64,000 nucleotides of DNA from Roseateles asaccharophilus (GTDB lineage: Bacteria; Pseudomonadota; Gammaproteobacteria; Burkholderiales; Burkholderiaceae_C): assembly GCF_004362405.1 (NCBI RefSeq), contig NZ_SNXE01000002.1:124001-188000 (forward strand). The letters are read 5' to 3'. Every line of letters begins with the position of its first letter. Position 1 is the stretch's first letter. Under the pieces are notes generated by a model. The model did not search any database, was not told the origin of the DNA, and saw only the letters and a program-made list of their open reading frames with translations. The translations under genes and the position numbers were made by a program. This document shows positions 57,613 through 64,000 of this stretch, in pieces.

Positions 57613-59571
57613 GTGCGTCCCGTGTCGAACGCCGATTCCAATGCCGGTTCCAGCGCGCCCGCGCCCTTGCGCCGCTTCGGGCGCTTCGAGTTGCGCGCCC
57701 TCCTGAGCAAGAGCAGCCGCAGCATGCTGTGGCTGGTGCTGGATCCGCGCAGCAGTCAGGAGCTGATGCTGTGCATGCCGCGCCAGGCGCCCAACAGTCC
57801 GGCGGCGCTGGCGCATTGGCTCAAGATGGCCGATACGGCCGCGCGCGTCCAGCACCCCAATCTCGCCCATGTGGTCGAAGTGGGGCAGGTGGAGCACTGG
57901 CCCTTTCTGGCCTATGACCGGGCCCTGGGCGAGACCCTGGATGAACGTCTGTCCCGGCAAGGGCTGCCCCAGCCTGTGGAGGCTGCGCAGTGGTTGTGCC
58001 AAGCGCTGGAGGGCCTGGCCTTTGCCCATGAGGCCGGCCACGCGCATCGCGATGTGCAGTCGGGCAGCTGGGTCGTGGACGCCGCCGGCCATGTGCGTCT
58101 TCTGGGGCTGGAAGTCGCCCAGGATGTGTTTCCCGCCAATACCGACTTCAACACCCTGACGCGCCGAGCCCTGCGCGAGGCGGCCGAGGAGGATGTGCTG
58201 CGGACGGGTCTGGTCTTGCATCGGGTGCTCACGGGCCGTGCCGTGCTGGATGAGGCCGATCTCAATCTGGTGCTCCAGCGCATGCAACCGCAGGGCTCCG
58301 AGTTGGTGCGGCTGTCCTTCGAGACACCGCAGCCCATTGCGGAACCCTTGCGCGCCATCGCCAATCGCGCGGTAGACCGCCAGGCCCGCCAGCGCTACCA
58401 CAGCGCGCGCAGCTTCTTACGGGCGCTCGAGGGCTGGCGTGGCAGCGTCAGCGAGCAAGGCGGCATGGTGGCCCAGCTGATGGACCGGCTGCAGCGCGTG
58501 GGCCATCTGCCCATCGCCTCGCTGCGCCTGCAGCGCATCGCCCAGTCCTCGGCCATGGAGTCCACGCACGCCAGCGAGCTCTCCACCCTGGTGCTGCAGG
58601 ACATGGCCCTGAGCCTGGAGATGCTGCGCCGGGTGAACAACGCGCTCAAGTCGCACGGCCAGTCCGTCAGCGGCGGCGCCATTCTGAATATGCAGCGGGC
58701 CATCGCCATGCTGGGCCTCAACGGCGTGCAGCAGGCGGCCCGCGGGCTCAAGCCCTGGCCGGGCCCGCTCAACGAGGCCCATGCGGCGCGCCTGCAAAGC
58801 CTGATGCGGCGTGTGCAGCGCGCCGGCCAGGTGGCTCAGGTGCTGCGCCCGGCCGGCTACGACGCCGAGGTGGTCTACCTGATCACGGTGATGCAGAACC
58901 TGGGGCGTTTGCTGCTGCAGTACCACTTTCCCGAGGATGCCCTGCAGATCCGGCAGCTGATGCAGGCCCCCGAGCCCACGGCCGAGCAGCCCAATCCCAG
59001 CGGCATGAGCGAGCAGTCCGCGGCCTTTGCTGTGCTGGGCTGCGATCTGGAGACGCTCGGCACGGCCGTGGCCCGCTACTGGAGTCTGGGCGATGAGCTG
59101 CTGCACATGATGCGGCGCTACCCGCCGGACGCACCGGTGCGTGCCGGCGCGCATCCGGGCGATGTCGAGCTGTTGCGACTGACCTGCAGCCTGGCCAATG
59201 AGCTGATCGAGGCGCTGGATCTTCCGGAACACAAGCGCCAGATCGGCGTGGAGCTGGCCACGCGCCGCTACGCGCGGATTCTGGGGCTGGGCCTGCGCGA
59301 TGTGCTGCTGGCCTTGAACCCGGAGACGTCGGCCGAGGACTCGGTCCAGGCTCAGCCCGCCGAAACCACCGCTGCCACCGTGACGCCTGCTGTCACGTCG
59401 GGGGCTCCGCAGCCCTCGGCCTTGCGCAACCGCTTGCGTGGACGTACCGACGGCAGCGAGCCGCCCTTGCCCCCACCGGCCTCGGCGGCGCTTGCCGCGG
59501 CGCCCGTGTCCCCGGGAGAGGGGAGCGGCTCGACCAGCCCCATGCCGCCGGTGGCTTCACCGGGTTTGTGA
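57613..59571 (+). CDS. Pseudokinase-HDOD fusion protein
   Basis: The 652-aa product starts with a Ser/Thr-kinase-like fold (residues 20-275) that has lost its catalytic residues. The Gly-rich loop reads LSKSSRSML, the beta-3 Lys is Cys54, the catalytic loop is HRDVQSGSW without the Asn, and DFG is replaced by LLG. An HDOD domain follows (about residues 285-490; LQRIAQSSAMESTHASELST and IAMLGLNGVQQAARG). A Pro/Ala/Ser-rich tail ends the protein (570-652). Start GTG 57613. A related but intact kinase-HDOD gene begins 32 bases downstream, so the pair is probably a duplication. Likely a scaffold or regulator of its neighbour. Confidence 0.85.
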   Translation: MRPVSNADSNAGSSAPAPLRRFGRFELRALLSKSSRSMLWLVLDPRSSQELMLCMPRQAPNSPAALAHWLKMADTAARVQHPNLAHVVEVGQVEHWPFLAYDRALGETLDERLSRQGLPQPVEAAQWLCQALEGLAFAHEAGHAHRDVQSGSWVVDAAGHVRLLGLEVAQDVFPANTDFNTLTRRALREAAEEDVLRTGLVLHRVLTGRAVLDEADLNLVLQRMQPQGSELVRLSFETPQPIAEPLRAIANRAVDRQARQRYHSARSFLRALEGWRGSVSEQGGMVAQLMDRLQRVGHLPIASLRLQRIAQSSAMESTHASELSTLVLQDMALSLEMLRRVNNALKSHGQSVSGGAILNMQRAIAMLGLNGVQQAARGLKPWPGPLNEAHAARLQSLMRRVQRAGQVAQVLRPAGYDAEVVYLITVMQNLGRLLLQYHFPEDALQIRQLMQAPEPTAEQPNPSGMSEQSAAFAVLGCDLETLGTAVARYWSLGDELLHMMRRYPPDAPVRAGAHPGDVELLRLTCSLANELIEALDLPEHKRQIGVELATRRYARILGLGLRDVLLALNPETSAEDSVQAQPAETTAATVTPAVTSGAPQPSALRNRLRGRTDGSEPPLPPPASAALAAAPVSPGEGSGSTSPMPPVASPGL

Positions 59572-59603
59572 GCGCCTGAAACCGCTCGCATACGGCCGAC
59601 GCC

Positions 59604-61991
59604 ATGTCCTCTACCCCGCCCGTCGCGCCCACGCTACCGCCAGCGCTGGGCCGCTTTCGCTTGCTGCGAGAGTTGGGCAAGGGCGCGCAGGCGACGGTCT
59701 GGCTGGCGCATGACCCGCATCTGGACCGCGAGGTGGCGCTCAAGGTCCTGAACCTGGGGGGGCGCAAGGACGAGCTTGAGGACGGTCTGCACGAGGCGCG
59801 TGCCGTCAGCCGGCTGCAGCATCCCAATATCGTCCAGGTCTTCGAGGCCGATGTGCAGGTGGGTCAGGCCTATCTGGTGTTTGAGTACGTGCCGGGGCCG
59901 ACCTTGGCGCAGCGCTTGCGCTCCGGGTCGCGCTTGGGTGTGCGTGAGTCGGTGGAGCTGATGCTGGGCGTCCTGGACGGCCTGGCGGCCGCCCATGCCG
60001 CGGGCGTGGTGCATCGAGATCTCAAGCCCTCCAATATCCTGTTGGATGCACGCGCTCGCCCGCGGGTGATGGATTTCGGGATCGCGGCCCGCGCAGACCG
60101 GCCCGGCAGCGGCGCCCAGGGGATTGTGGGCACGCCGGGCTACATCTCGCCCGAGGCTGCCCGTGGTGAGGCGCCCAGCGCTTCCATGGACATCTTCGCG
60201 GCCGCCGTGGTGCTGGCAGAGATGCTGGCGGGACAGCGCTTGGTGCAGGAGACCGAGCCCTGGCGAGCGGTCCGTCTGGCGATCGAGCAGGACCTGCACT
60301 TGCCCTCCGGACTCGAGGCCGCCGTGGACGACAAGCTGCGTGCCATCGTCCAACGCGGGCTGGCGCGTGACCCGGCGCAGCGCTGGAGCAGCGCGCGGGA
60401 CATGCACGACGCCTTGCAGGATTGGCTGCACCCGGCCGCCGCCACCACCGTGGAGTCGGGGGCCGCTGCCACCCTGGAGTTCCTGCTTCGGCGCATGCGG
60501 CACAAGAGCGACTTTCCCGCCATGTCCGATGCGGTGCAGCGCATACAACGCCTCACCCATTCCGAGAACGAGAACCTCCACAGCCTGGCCAACGAGATCC
60601 TCAAGGATGTGGCGCTGACGCACAAGCTGCTGCGTCTGGTCAATAGCGCGCAGTTCAGCCACGCGGGGGGCGGCAGCATTTCCACGGTGTCGCGTGCGGC
60701 GGCCCTGATTGGCTTCTCCGGCATACGTAATCTGGCGCTGTCCCTCATCCTGCTGGAGCGCATGGAAAACAAGACCCATGCCCAGCAGCTGCGTGAGGAG
60801 TTTCTGCGGGCCTTGATGGCGGGCGCCCTGGCGCGCGAGCTGTGCGTCCTGCCGCAGGAGAAGGAGGAAGTGTTTCTGATGGCCTTGCTGCAGGGCTTGG
60901 GTCGGCTCTTGTGCGAGTTCTACTTCCCGGAAGAAGCACAGCAGATTCGCCAGCTGCAGGGTGGCACTCCGCCCATCACGGAAGTCCAAGCCGCCATGCA
61001 GGTCCTGGGGCTGAGCTACGAGCAGCTGGGGCAGGGCGTGGCGCGGCAATGGGGCTTGCCGGACAAGCTGCTGCGCGGCATGGATCGGCCTTCAGGGGAG
61101 CCGCCCATGCGTCTGCTGGAGAGCCCGATCGAGCGTCAGCGCTGGCTGGTCCGCGCCGCCAACGATGTGTCGGACCTGATCCTGAGGACGGAACCCGAGC
61201 AGGCGCACGCCAGGCTCAAGGCCCTGGCGCAGCGATACTCGCGGGCCTTGGGCAGCCCGGCCGAGTCCTTTGAGCTGGCGGCCGACGAGGCGCGTCAGCG
61301 TCTGGCTCAGCTGGCCCAGGCCATGAACATCCGACCGGCCCAGCGCTCGGCGGCGCAGCGTTTGCTGGCGCCGATCAGGCCGACCTTGGACGACAGTCTC
61401 TCGCCGCATGAGCTGCATGCCACCATGACCCTGGTGCAGGGTTCCGCCGCAGAGCGCGCGTCCGAGGCGGCCTCCGACATCCTGGCGGCCGGCATTCAGG
61501 ACATCACGAATGCCATGGTGGAGAACTTCCGTCTCAACGAAGTGCTGCGCATGATTCTGGAGACCATCTATCGCAGCCTCGGCTTCAGGCGGGTGGTCTT
61601 TTGTCTGCGTGACCCGCGCAATGACACCCTGACCGGTCGCTTCGGTCTGGGTGAAGGCGTGGAGACGGTGGCGCCGCTGTTTCGCGTGCCCCTGCGCCCG
61701 GGTCCGGATCAGGCCAACGATCTCTTTGCGGCGGTGTGCCAGAAGGGGGTGGACACGCTGATCACGGATGCCTCGGTGCCCAAGATTGCCCAGCGTCTGC
61801 CGGCTTGGTTCCTGGGCGCGCCCAAGGCGGCCAGCTTTCTGATCCTGCCCATGAGCATGAAGGGTGCGCCCTTCGCCATGATCTATGCGGACAAGGCCGA
61901 GACGGGCGGCATCGCGCTGGGCGACAAGGAGTTGTCGCTGCTGCGCACCTTGCGCAACCAGGCGGTGATGGCATTCAAGCAGGCTGCCTGA
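59604..61991 (+). CDS. Active Ser/Thr kinase-HDOD-GAF protein
   Basis: The 795-aa product has an intact Hanks-type kinase domain (residues 16-285): LGKGAQATVW, VALKVLN (Lys47), VVHRDLKPSNILL (Asp139, Asn144), VMDFGIA (Asp157) and GTPGYISPEA. An HDOD domain follows (about 290-500; LTHSENENLHSLANEIL; VSRAAALIGFSGIRNLALS). A C-terminal GAF domain (about 625-795) contains RRVVFCLRDP and SFLILPMSMKGAPFAMIYAD. No membrane helix is seen. Paired paralogue upstream is a pseudokinase; both HDOD parts share a F-P-E-[DE]-A-x-Q-I-R-Q-L sequence. The GAF domain may bind a small ligand. The targets are unknown. Confidence 0.88.
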   Translation: MSSTPPVAPTLPPALGRFRLLRELGKGAQATVWLAHDPHLDREVALKVLNLGGRKDELEDGLHEARAVSRLQHPNIVQVFEADVQVGQAYLVFEYVPGPTLAQRLRSGSRLGVRESVELMLGVLDGLAAAHAAGVVHRDLKPSNILLDARARPRVMDFGIAARADRPGSGAQGIVGTPGYISPEAARGEAPSASMDIFAAAVVLAEMLAGQRLVQETEPWRAVRLAIEQDLHLPSGLEAAVDDKLRAIVQRGLARDPAQRWSSARDMHDALQDWLHPAAATTVESGAAATLEFLLRRMRHKSDFPAMSDAVQRIQRLTHSENENLHSLANEILKDVALTHKLLRLVNSAQFSHAGGGSISTVSRAAALIGFSGIRNLALSLILLERMENKTHAQQLREEFLRALMAGALARELCVLPQEKEEVFLMALLQGLGRLLCEFYFPEEAQQIRQLQGGTPPITEVQAAMQVLGLSYEQLGQGVARQWGLPDKLLRGMDRPSGEPPMRLLESPIERQRWLVRAANDVSDLILRTEPEQAHARLKALAQRYSRALGSPAESFELAADEARQRLAQLAQAMNIRPAQRSAAQRLLAPIRPTLDDSLSPHELHATMTLVQGSAAERASEAASDILAAGIQDITNAMVENFRLNEVLRMILETIYRSLGFRRVVFCLRDPRNDTLTGRFGLGEGVETVAPLFRVPLRPGPDQANDLFAAVCQKGVDTLITDASVPKIAQRLPAWFLGAPKAASFLILPMSMKGAPFAMIYADKAETGGIALGDKELSLLRTLRNQAVMAFKQAA

Positions 61992-62048
61992 GCGGCAGCT
62001 GGCGCTTGGAGGTGGCGGCGGGCGCTGTCGGCCCGGGCTGGCGTGGGC

Positions 62049-62285
62049 TCAGAAAGGGCCGCGACGCTCGAGGTGACGGAAGGTGATGCGACCCTTGGAG
62101 AGGTCGTAGGCCGAAAGTTCCAGGGTCACGGCATCGCCCGCCAGGATGCGGATGTGGTGCTTGCGCATCTTGCCGCCGGTGTAGGCGATGACCTCATGGC
62201 CATTCTCGAGCTTGACGCGAAAGCGGGAATCGGGAAGCACCTCGTTGACGGTGCCGCGCATTTCGATGAGCTCTTCCTTGGCCAT
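62049..62285 (-). CDS. infA: Translation initiation factor IF-1
   Basis: The 78-aa S1-like OB-fold protein has [40 protein letters not shown] and the C-terminal [13 protein letters not shown]-1 blocks the A site during initiation. Betaproteobacteria often carry two infA genes, and this copy next to a cold-shock gene is probably the second, outside the ribosomal cluster. The start ATG at 62285 follows AAGGACATAC. Confidence 0.96.
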
Positions 62286-62356
62286 GTATGTCCTTGTTGT
62301 GCGCTGTCGGCGCAGGCCGAGCAGGGCGGTTTGTCTAGGTTAGCGGAGAGAAACAC

Positions 62357-62383
62357 CGCGGGGTGCGATGCATGCTCCCCGCG
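62357..62383 (-). terminator. Likely terminator of the cold-shock gene
   Basis: CGCGGGG and CCCCGCG form a 7-bp stem with an internal two-pair extension. On the minus strand GTGTTTCTC follows. It lies 23 bases after the cold-shock stop and 71 bases before infA. Confidence 0.6.
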
Positions 62384-62405
62384 ATGAGGTCAGTCCCTGA
62401 GGGAC

Positions 62406-62618
62406 TTAGACGGCGCGGATGTTCGCGGCTTGCAGGCCCTTGGGGCCCTGCTTGACCTCGAACTCCACCTGGGCGCCTTCGGCCAGGGTGCGGAAGCCGC
62501 CGTTGTTGCGGATTTCGCTGTGGTGAGCGAACAGGTCCTTGGAGCCGTCGCTCGGGGTGATGAAGCCGAAGCCCTTGCCGTCGTCAAACCACTTCACGAT
62601 GCCGGTTTGCAGGTTCAT
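62406..62618 (-). CDS. CspA-family cold-shock protein
   Basis: The 70-aa product has RNP1 KGFGFITP and RNP2 DLFAHHSEI, where the common VFVH core reads LFAH. It begins [19 protein letters not shown]. Cold-shock proteins melt RNA structure. ATG 62618 has AAGGAA upstream; the longer open frame lies in the leader. About 260 bases of untranslated sequence separate it from the SRP RNA, typical of the long regulatory leader of cspA-like genes. Confidence 0.94.
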
Positions 62619-62883
62619 GGTGTTTCCTTGATGAGATGAAAATGAAACGAGAACACTCCGGGCGCCACCATGGCGAGCCGGAGACAGAAACACTCAAGAG
62701 CAATCAGCAGGGGTGAAGCTGTAGCGAGCCGCTCGCTTTGAGAGTCTGCATGATGCGGACCGGCGGGGCTGCAGATAAGACCGTTGGAGAAGGGCCTTGC
62801 GCGAATCTATGCGCCGAAGTTTAGCATGCCGCCACGGCGATCGCCGAGCGTGCGTAGGGGCTTGCTCAGGTATTGGGGTTGAC

Positions 62884-62972
62884 GAGCCTTACCCCCGGCA
62901 CTGGTCACAACGGTTAGGGCTGCTTGGTTCCCCACCTGACCCGGTTGGCCGCGCTTCCATGCGAGGAGGCCC
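62884..62972 (-). ncRNA. ffs: Small (4.5S-type) signal recognition particle RNA
   Basis: On the minus strand the conserved helix-8 core is present: GGGTCAGGTGGGGAACCA followed by AGCAGCC (62907-62942 region). It forms a GGAA tetraloop closed by TGG/CCA, with the symmetric GTCAGG...AGCAGCC loop that binds Ffh. The ends pair (GGGCCTCC near 62972 with GGGGTAAGGCTC near 62884). SRP RNA with Ffh targets inner-membrane proteins. A -10-like TACAAT (62983-62988, minus strand) would start transcription near 62976. Exact ends are estimates. Confidence 0.85.
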
Positions 62973-62982
62973 GTCAAGCGCC

Positions 62983-62988
62983 ATTGTA
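62983..62988 (-). promoter_or_regulatory. -10 element of the SRP RNA promoter
   Basis: TACAAT on the minus strand matches five of six consensus bases and lies the right distance upstream of the predicted RNA 5' end. I see no convincing -35. Confidence 0.45.
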
Positions 62989-63041
62989 TGCGATGCCCGA
63001 CGGCCCTCGGGCGAACTGCGCGCCTGTCGCTTCCCGAACTC

Positions 63042-63425
63042 TCAGCCCAGCAGACCCAGCCAGGGGTCTCGGATGAAGGACAGGGACACGATATAGCCCA
63101 GCAGCAGCAGGGTGAGGAAGTACAAGGGCAGGCTGAAGTCTTCATCCTGCATGGCGAAGTGCGCGCAGGCGCCATAGCCCGTGACGGCCAGCAGCTTGGC
63201 CATGAGCCAGCCATCGCGCAAGGGATTGAAGCTGAGCAGGCCCCAGAGACTGAGCCCGCTGACCACCAGCAGCATGTTCACGCCAAAGGCGATGACACCG
63301 CCACGGCTGTCCACTGCCCAGCGACCGCCCAGGTGGTAGATCAGTCCGCGGCCGGCGAACAGCAGGATGCTGCACCAGCCCAGTATGCGGTGCATCTCCA
63401 GCATCTGCGTGTAGAACCAGTCCAC
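63042..63425 (-). CDS. SirB2-like small membrane protein
   Basis: The 127-aa product has four hydrophobic segments (around residues 10-28, 44-65, 76-92 and 98-118). The N-terminus MDWFYTQMLEMHRILGWCSI and the central RGLIYHLGG resemble the SirB2 family (invasion regulator SirB in Salmonella). The conserved His near residue 12 is present. Its function in most bacteria is unknown. It lies between the SRP RNA and a PurM-like gene, both on the same strand. Confidence 0.75.
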   Translation of the reverse strand: MDWFYTQMLEMHRILGWCSILLFAGRGLIYHLGGRWAVDSRGGVIAFGVNMLLVVSGLSLWGLLSFNPLRDGWLMAKLLAVTGYGACAHFAMQDEDFSLPLYFLTLLLLGYIVSLSFIRDPWLGLLG

Positions 63426-63489
63426 GTGGCGCCTATCCTTGAGGGTTCTGGCGCGGCCTTGGTGGCCGCGCTCGCAGTCGGTCGCCGTA

Positions 63490-64000
63490 TCAGCGCAGTT
63501 GCAGATCGTCGTCGCTGAAGCGGATGTTCAGCGGTTCGATCAGCAGCTGCTTGGGGCCCTCTTCAAGGCTGCCCGCGACCCAGGCCTCGATGCCGCAGGC
63601 CTTGGCCACTTCCACCGTGCGTTCGGCATCTGCAGCCGGCACGAAGAGCGCAAAGCCCGCGCCCATGTTCAGCGTCGAATAGGCCTCGCGGTCGTCCTGC
63701 TTGGCCTGTTCCTGGATGAACTTGAGCACCGGGGTGACCGGGGGCACGGTGTGGATGCGGTAGGTGAACTGGCCCGGGTGGCGCAGCAGCTTGCGCCAGC
63801 CGTGACCGGTGATGTTGGCGCAGTAGTGCGGCTGGATACCGGCCTTGAACAGGGCCTCGGTCACCGGCGAGTAGAGCACGGTGGGTGCCAGCAGGGCCTC
63901 GCCATAGCTCAGGCCAGGCGCGATCTCGGTCAGGTAACCCTGGGGCAGGCGCTCGACCAGCTTGCGGGCCAGGGACAGGCCGTTGGCATGGATGCCGCTG
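63490..64000 (-). CDS. PurM-like AIR synthase family protein (N-terminus outside window)
   Basis: About 169 C-terminal residues are visible; the frame runs off the window end. It has SSGIHANGLSLARKL-type sequence, LLAPTVLYSPVTEALF, the glycine-rich ANITGHGWRKLLRHP and LNMGAGFALFVP. These match the C-terminal domain of AIR synthase (phosphoribosylformylglycinamidine cyclo-ligase) and its paralogues. Details differ from canonical PurM (TGHGW rather than TGGG, MGAGF rather than CGVGM), so it may be a paralogue with another role. Upstream context is not available. Confidence 0.75.
   Translation of the reverse strand, partial: SGIHANGLSLARKLVERLPQGYLTEIAPGLSYGEALLAPTVLYSPVTEALFKAGIQPHYCANITGHGWRKLLRHPGQFTYRIHTVPPVTPVLKFIQEQAKQDDREAYSTLNMGAGFALFVPAADAERTVEVAKACGIEAWVAGSLEEGPKQLLIEPLNIRFSDDDLQLR

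Follow-up and report, generated by a model that had tools for sequence, protein, structure and literature searches.

Two adjacent genes in a 64,000-nucleotide stretch of Roseateles asaccharophilus DNA (hereafter the window) encode paralogous proteins that join a Hanks-type kinase fold to an HDOD domain. The first protein, A, has a degenerate catalytic site and is under purifying selection in genomes with and without its neighbor, whereas the second protein, B, has an intact catalytic residue set. In our preferred reading, for which we regard the case as about evenly balanced, A is a self-standing pseudokinase-HDOD adaptor and B is its facultative kinase partner, the two forming a co-expressed module whose members are able to live apart.

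Two kinase-HDOD paralogues in the window

A sequence-only reading of this locus had described two neighboring paralogues that each combine a kinase fold with an HDOD domain. This description was confirmed. Both genes lie on the + strand within positions 57613-61991, and their products are 30% identical over 566 alignment columns (E 2e-46). When the window's genome was searched with B, 8 matches appeared, and B and A alone among them spanned both the kinase and the HDOD domains. The features of the locus are as follows.

57613..59571, + strand: gene A, pseudokinase-HDOD protein; open reading frame with a GTG start, 652 aa; Pfam and alignment to B
57670..58437, + strand: kinase-like domain of A, catalytically degenerate, aa 20-275; partial Pfam Pkinase match, alignment to B and a low-confidence model
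57706..57723, + strand: degenerate Gly loop of A, aa 32-37; sequence and alignment
57772..57774, + strand: Cys54 of A at the beta-3 Lys position; sequence, with Lys in 0/87 A rows
58045..58068, + strand: catalytic loop of A, HRDVQSGS, aa 145-152; sequence and alignment
58105..58113, + strand: GLE of A at the DFG position, aa 165-167; sequence, with the DFG Asp in 0/87 A rows
58519..59115, + strand: HDOD domain of A, aa 303-501; Pfam E 2.5e-15
59293..59568, + strand: C-terminal tail of A, aa 561-652; model confidence low from about residue 576, dN/dS 0.29-0.73
59572..59603, + strand: A-B intergenic gap, 32 nt; sequence and consensus scan
59604..61991, + strand: gene B, Hanks-type kinase-HDOD-GAF protein; open reading frame with an ATG start, 795 aa; Pfam and alignment
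59658..60404, + strand: kinase domain of B, aa 19-267; Pfam E 9e-46, alignment and a PknB-like model
60516..61076, + strand: HDOD domain of B, aa 305-491; Pfam E 9.2e-34 and a match to seven solved chains
61533..61973, + strand: GAF-like domain of B, aa 644-790; Pfam E 3.9e-4, an alpha/beta region with a block pLDDT of 73-90

The upstream protein was said to have lost the Gly loop, the beta-3 Lys (Cys54 in its place), the catalytic-loop Asn and the DFG Asp, and each of these assignments was correct. The Gly loop region reads LLSKSSRSM in A versus LGKGAQATV in B, in which GxGxxA is present. The catalytic loop of A keeps His, Arg and Asp, with Gln and Ser replacing the Lys and Asn of the B sequence HRDLKPSN. 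Absence of the activation-segment PE from the window's A is a loss additional to those listed in the earlier reading, and the C-helix Glu position is occupied by Met. That A nevertheless has a kinase fold is indicated by a partial Pfam Pkinase match (E 1.4e-7; 31.6 bits versus the curated cut-off of 31.7), by profile matches to solved kinases (best E 7.8e-18) and by a whole-protein model of low confidence (mean pLDDT 64.3). The best structural match of this low-confidence model was PknI (Z 15.2, 4.5 Å over 226 residues), and the kinase homology domain of Rv3910 (3uqc_D) was also matched (Z 13.3, 4.0 Å over 226 residues). We take Rv3910 to be MviN.

The downstream protein had been described as intact and as carrying a GAF domain, which our analysis bore out except that the GAF match is slightly below the Pfam threshold (21.4 versus 22.4 bits). 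B contains K47, E64, HRD (residues 137-139), K141, N144, DFG (157-159) and PE (183-184), and with this full residue set it is predicted to be a catalytically competent Ser/Thr kinase. The HDOD domains of both A (56.9 bits) and B (117.1 bits) score above the Pfam gathering score of 22.9, and several of the seven solved chains matched by the B domain are HDOD proteins. The whole-protein model of B is also of low confidence (pLDDT 69.9).

Linkage of A and B and retention of A without B

Among 299 genomes of the window's family, A was found in at least 102, B in about 102 (101 without the doubtful G005) and both genes together in 75. Matches were counted as B at E <=1e-75 when the match range was judged to include the kinase; the matches of G014, G119, G196 and G228 were partial or split but still counted, as was that of G005, which spans residues 239-794 only. 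Not counted were the weaker full-length B-type matches of G165 and G248, which are live by motif, a pseudokinase of genus g153 in G154, and partial matches such as those in G065, G067, G218, G256 and G291; none of the genomes with these uncounted matches is in the A list.

Adjacency in related genomes had been set beforehand as a test of the earlier reading, and it was borne out. A and B are adjacent, on one strand and with A first, in 74 of the 75 genomes that contain both, which rules out chance adjacency. The single exception is G304, where the two genes are on separate contigs, A at one end of the first and B close to the beginning of the second. Of 62 pairs, 24 show a 4-nt overlap between the two genes. 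In the window, a consensus scan of the + strand across the A-B gap, which provides weak evidence, revealed nothing resembling a promoter or terminator. The upstream genes differ, being argA-hrpA in the window's clade and addB-addA or trxA-rho-rpmE elsewhere, and an AIR-synthase-like gene and dnaX are frequent downstream of the pair; all neighbor names were read from sequence and that of the AIR-synthase-like gene alone was checked against Pfam. The near-invariant adjacency and the frequent 4-nt overlap argue for co-expression of A and B and for a shared pathway. On the 3′ side of B, the - strand of the window (61992-63999) encodes InfA (named from sequence), cold-shock, SirB-like and AIR-synthase-like proteins, the last of which recurs near A at many other loci.

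B was missing from 27 of the genomes that contain A, and 20 of these 27 A-only genomes are at least 95% complete. We also found 27 B-only genomes; since these numbers are alike, the counts alone give no polarity. A search with B at E <=1e-20 in 26 A-bearing genomes identified a full B, among the matches listed, only in G219 and G292, both of which were counted as paired. No second kinase-HDOD protein besides A was among the matches listed at this threshold for 24 of the 27 A-only genomes, and in the other three (G071, G140 and G235) the sequence extracted around A contained no neighboring B, nor was one found at E <=1e-75. However, 7 of the 24 A-only genomes searched contain an HDOD-GAF protein that is related to B but has no kinase match (L154 and L155, from G184 and G265; G035:C24, G079:C54, G195:C6, G100:C249 and G272:C42), on contigs or sites other than those of A. 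These seven genomes are thus not entirely devoid of a B-like partner. When the paired and A-only states were placed on an A tree of 87 rows, at least 11 changes were required.

Selection on the dead domain was estimated as simple pairwise Nei-Gojobori dN/dS; because synonymous divergence is considerable (pS 0.21-0.53 in a set of 15 comparisons and 0.28-0.66 for A and B near the window), the values are rough. The kinase-like domain of A gave 0.07-0.42 across the 15 comparisons. Near the window, the dead domain of A gave 0.14-0.20 and the live domain of B 0.18-0.27, in three comparisons each. Between A-only relatives the values for the dead domain were 0.07 (G086/G197), 0.14 (G207/G103), 0.25 (G265/G035), 0.27 (G289/G216), 0.29 (G123/G296), 0.33 (G265/G184) and 0.40 (G106/G209), as compared with 0.16-0.42 for paired-paired and 0.14-0.34 for mixed comparisons (four of each). 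These values are read on the assumption that B was lost before each compared set of A-only relatives split. Purifying selection on the dead domain between A-only relatives suggests that A is useful without B, and an independent role for A is probable.

These results bear on the proposal in the sequence-only reading that the first protein regulates or scaffolds the second. Regulation is plausible in that A is a conserved pseudokinase encoded beside B, and an allosteric partnership is possible in the paired genomes, but this is not sufficient and seems not to be the sole function of A in view of the 27 A-only genomes. From the existence of A-only genomes and the purifying selection between them, A seems not to exist only for B. 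We consider the strict form of the proposal unlikely, namely that A serves only to activate B allosterically or to scaffold it, in the manner of known pseudokinase-kinase pairs, and does nothing else. Conserved order and adjacency, the 4-nt overlaps and the constraint on the dead domain all favor such a dedicated partner, but they are outweighed by the lack of B in 27 of at least 102 A genomes, most of them nearly complete as noted above, by the repeated switching between the paired and A-only states along the A tree, by the low dN/dS of the dead domain in the G207/G103 and G086/G197 comparisons, and by the absence of A from 27 genomes with B, such that each gene is found alone.

An explanation of comparably low probability is that A and B act in one pathway without contact, as two parallel HDOD signaling proteins that are encoded by a shared operon and receive different inputs. 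The presence of HDOD in both proteins, the occurrence of either gene alone and the existence of kinase-less HDOD-GAF relatives are all consistent with this arrangement. However, the same paralogues stay adjacent despite differing upstream genes, which contact or dosage coupling would explain more easily.

We compared A between paired and A-only genomes. Weaker constraint on A after loss of B was rejected, as root-to-tip lengths were alike (Mann-Whitney p 0.62); median terminal branches were 0.24 for A-only versus 0.10 for paired rows, with sampling denser near the window. At a lenient threshold, 7 columns were conserved in paired versus 0 in A-only rows, a difference as high in 3 of 300 shuffles and uncontrolled for relatedness, and at a strict threshold the numbers were 1 and 0. 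This weak difference gives no clear signature of a B interface in A. The fast-evolving tail of the window's A contains a short basic motif, SALRNRL (59416-59436), confined to the window's clade. The corresponding C-terminal pattern [ST]xLRx[RK][LM] matched 22 of the 64 A proteins from paired genomes and none of the 24 from A-only genomes; as all 22 belong to that same clade, it is uninformative on B and was rejected as a docking motif.

Residue conservation and origin of A

Loci were gathered as 80 stretches around matches plus 28 named loci, the nearest named relatives being mainly Roseateles, Paucibacter and Pelomonas. After removal of duplicates, the alignment had 85 A and 91 B rows (176 in total), the two proteins of the window among them. 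The 87 A rows that were scored comprise 84 of the 85 aligned (without L110) and three added rows, whereas six of the 91 B rows were excluded (one fragment, two kinase-less proteins, two g153 pseudokinases and one with a damaged kinase region). Gene A of L110 (5352-7278, genome G082) is apparently in two frames, either a real break or an assembly error, and was omitted from the A tree and the motif counts; gene B of L049 (6851-9415), from a metagenome-assembled genome, is in two pieces. For A-specific conserved residues, L120 and L144 were omitted besides L110, and the matching B set was without L049, L139-L141, L143, the HDOD-GAF rows and the g153 pseudokinases.

The losses seen in the window extend across the family. 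None of the 87 A rows has the beta-3 Lys or the DFG Asp, and the catalytic-loop Asn is retained in 6. The activation-segment PE is present in 0/87 A rows versus 85/85 full-length B-type rows. Loss of the C-helix Glu is not universal, as this residue was found in 9 of 84 A rows and in one of the three added rows. The DFG position is separated from the alpha-F Asp by at most 31 residues in 50 of 82 A rows, compared to 36-64 residues in 82 B rows. Conversely, Lys, Glu, the HxD Asp, the catalytic Lys, Asn and the DFG Asp are all kept in 83 of the 85 full-length B-type rows, the two exceptions (L139 and L140) being distant paralogues from one genome. Judged by the loss of ATP-, Mg- and phosphotransfer residues across its orthologues, A is classified as a pseudokinase.

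Other positions in the dead domain are conserved. His145 (84/87), Asp147 (81/87) and Gln149 (72/87) define the signature HxDxQ, and Lys or Arg occupies the K33 position in 84/87 rows. In the window, K33 (57709-57711) is a basic residue within the degenerate Gly loop that might replace the lost beta-3 Lys. Should the K33-position residue do so, A could in principle be alive, binding nucleotide in an unusual manner and using the HxD Asp for a non-canonical activity. Conservation of these residues is in keeping with this idea, as are other pseudokinases with unusual ATP binding or altered activity that are described or modelled in excerpts of a 2025 review (PMC12599244). We nevertheless consider a live A very unlikely given the complete absence of the DFG Asp and the PE, the scarcity of the Asn and the shortened activation segment in 50 of 82 rows. 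That A is a decaying duplicate of B heading for loss, as its missing catalytic residues and the split gene of L110 might suggest, was rejected on the dN/dS values given above for the 15 comparisons and near the window (rough pairwise estimates), conflicts with a single A clade having conserved A-specific residues, and has almost no probability.

A quick, midpoint-rooted tree was built from 91 rows. A branch with a support of 100 separated the 42 A rows from the rest. The 47 active B rows fell on one side of a branch with a support of 95, and the opposite side held A and the g153 pseudokinases. A sample of 300 genomes from across the order yielded matches as strong as those of A orthologues only in G000 and G116, both from the window's family, and the other matches at E <=1e-45 look B-type (27-32% identity, open frames of 778-918 aa). 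B-type proteins are more widespread, occurring at E <=1e-60 in 21 of 274 genomes across the class, the window's own included. Because matches of A strength are limited to the family whereas B-type proteins spread wider, A appears to have arisen at the level of the family from an ancestor resembling B.

Genus g153 contains a second pseudokinase lineage, in which HDOD is retained, as is a GAF-like region in those members checked. In G244 (L113:5965-10869) and G313 (L117:2967-7773) an active kinase-HDOD-GAF gene is followed by a B-like pseudokinase, and in G154 (L152 from 3955) the pseudokinase was present with no active B found at E <=1e-75. Since these proteins and A lie on the same side of the 95-supported branch, one loss of activity common to both is possible. 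Tandem kinase-HDOD-GAF pairs in which both members are live by motif were seen at L126:5992-10880 (G049) and L147 (G475), in families other than that of the window.

Taken jointly, these data allow a broader reading that we hold only tentatively and rate as somewhat doubtful: A would found a distinct bacterial pseudokinase family and act as a free-standing HDOD-linked hub, once the partner of a live kinase and freed from it in many lineages. The signature of the family would be a Gly loop of [GNSH]-[KR]-S, HxDxQ, Gly-Leu-x in place of DFG, and no PE, and the second HDOD-GAF pseudokinase lineage, of g153, would have taken a similar path. If this were true, the family would offer a natural series of kinase pairs in which the live member was lost while the dead one stayed under selection.

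A working model and comparison with known systems

Our preferred reading, a self-standing adaptor A with a facultative kinase B, can be put as a working model. B would be the catalytically competent Ser/Thr kinase, with its HDOD and GAF domains probably serving dimerization and input. The kinase fold of A, stripped of ATP/Mg and substrate-binding features, would act as a binding or docking platform, and the HDOD domain of A would hand the signal on. Where B is present, contact between the two proteins would most likely occur through the homologous kinase and/or HDOD domains, and A may be an adaptor, an allosteric partner or a substrate of B. Where B is absent, A would work with another partner. 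Paired, dead-only and live-only genomes occur within one bacterial family, and a single genus includes both a paired (G128) and a dead-only (G226) member, so Roseateles-like bacteria and their relatives allow a direct test of what a pseudokinase does when its kinase is missing.

We found no description of an HDOD pseudokinase or of the A-B pair in the open-access literature searched, part of which was covered by top-ranked results. The 2025 review describes bacterial pseudokinases as largely unexplored experimentally (PMC12599244), and the words HDOD, HD domain, Burkholderi, Betaproteobacteria and active kinase are absent from its main text. Like bacterial pseudokinases of the families it covers (ActPs1-3, CP1, DYD and DLHK; EssB/YukC; MviN), A is without the beta-3 Lys and the DFG Asp. 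As in DLHK members, the HRD Asp is kept in A (81/87). However, DLHK proteins retain the catalytic-loop Asn, which only 6 of 87 A rows do, and A therefore falls outside the DLHK definition as excerpted (PMC12599244).

An HDOD domain is shared by A and B with SadB, GsmR and I2285, the last encoded beside cdpA. Unlike for A and B, excerpts of the relevant papers name no kinase domain for these proteins (PMC9040570, PMC6543031). HDOD proteins elsewhere influence motility or biofilm, according to excerpts of three reports (PMC9040570, PMC11813219, PMC6543031), and a section headed 'SadB binds c-di-GMP' deals with an assay of c-di-GMP binding by SadB (PMC6543031). A conserved Trp matters in GsmR, as does W205 together with Y194 in I2285 (PMC9040570). 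The HDOD domains of our two proteins contain an invariant Trp, W490 in 82/82 A rows and W483 in 82/82 B rows, which by analogy may be equivalent to the Trp residues of GsmR and I2285.

B resembles the Hanks kinases of the PknB/PknA type in that the catalytic residues are present, and its model superimposes on PknB (2fum_A) with Z 30.4 and 2.2 Å over 256 residues at 32% identity. The best NCBIfam score of B is 221.8 bits versus the 450-bit cut-off of the PASTA-kinase model, and B departs from the PknB/PknA type in that its kinase domain is followed by an HDOD and a GAF-like domain.
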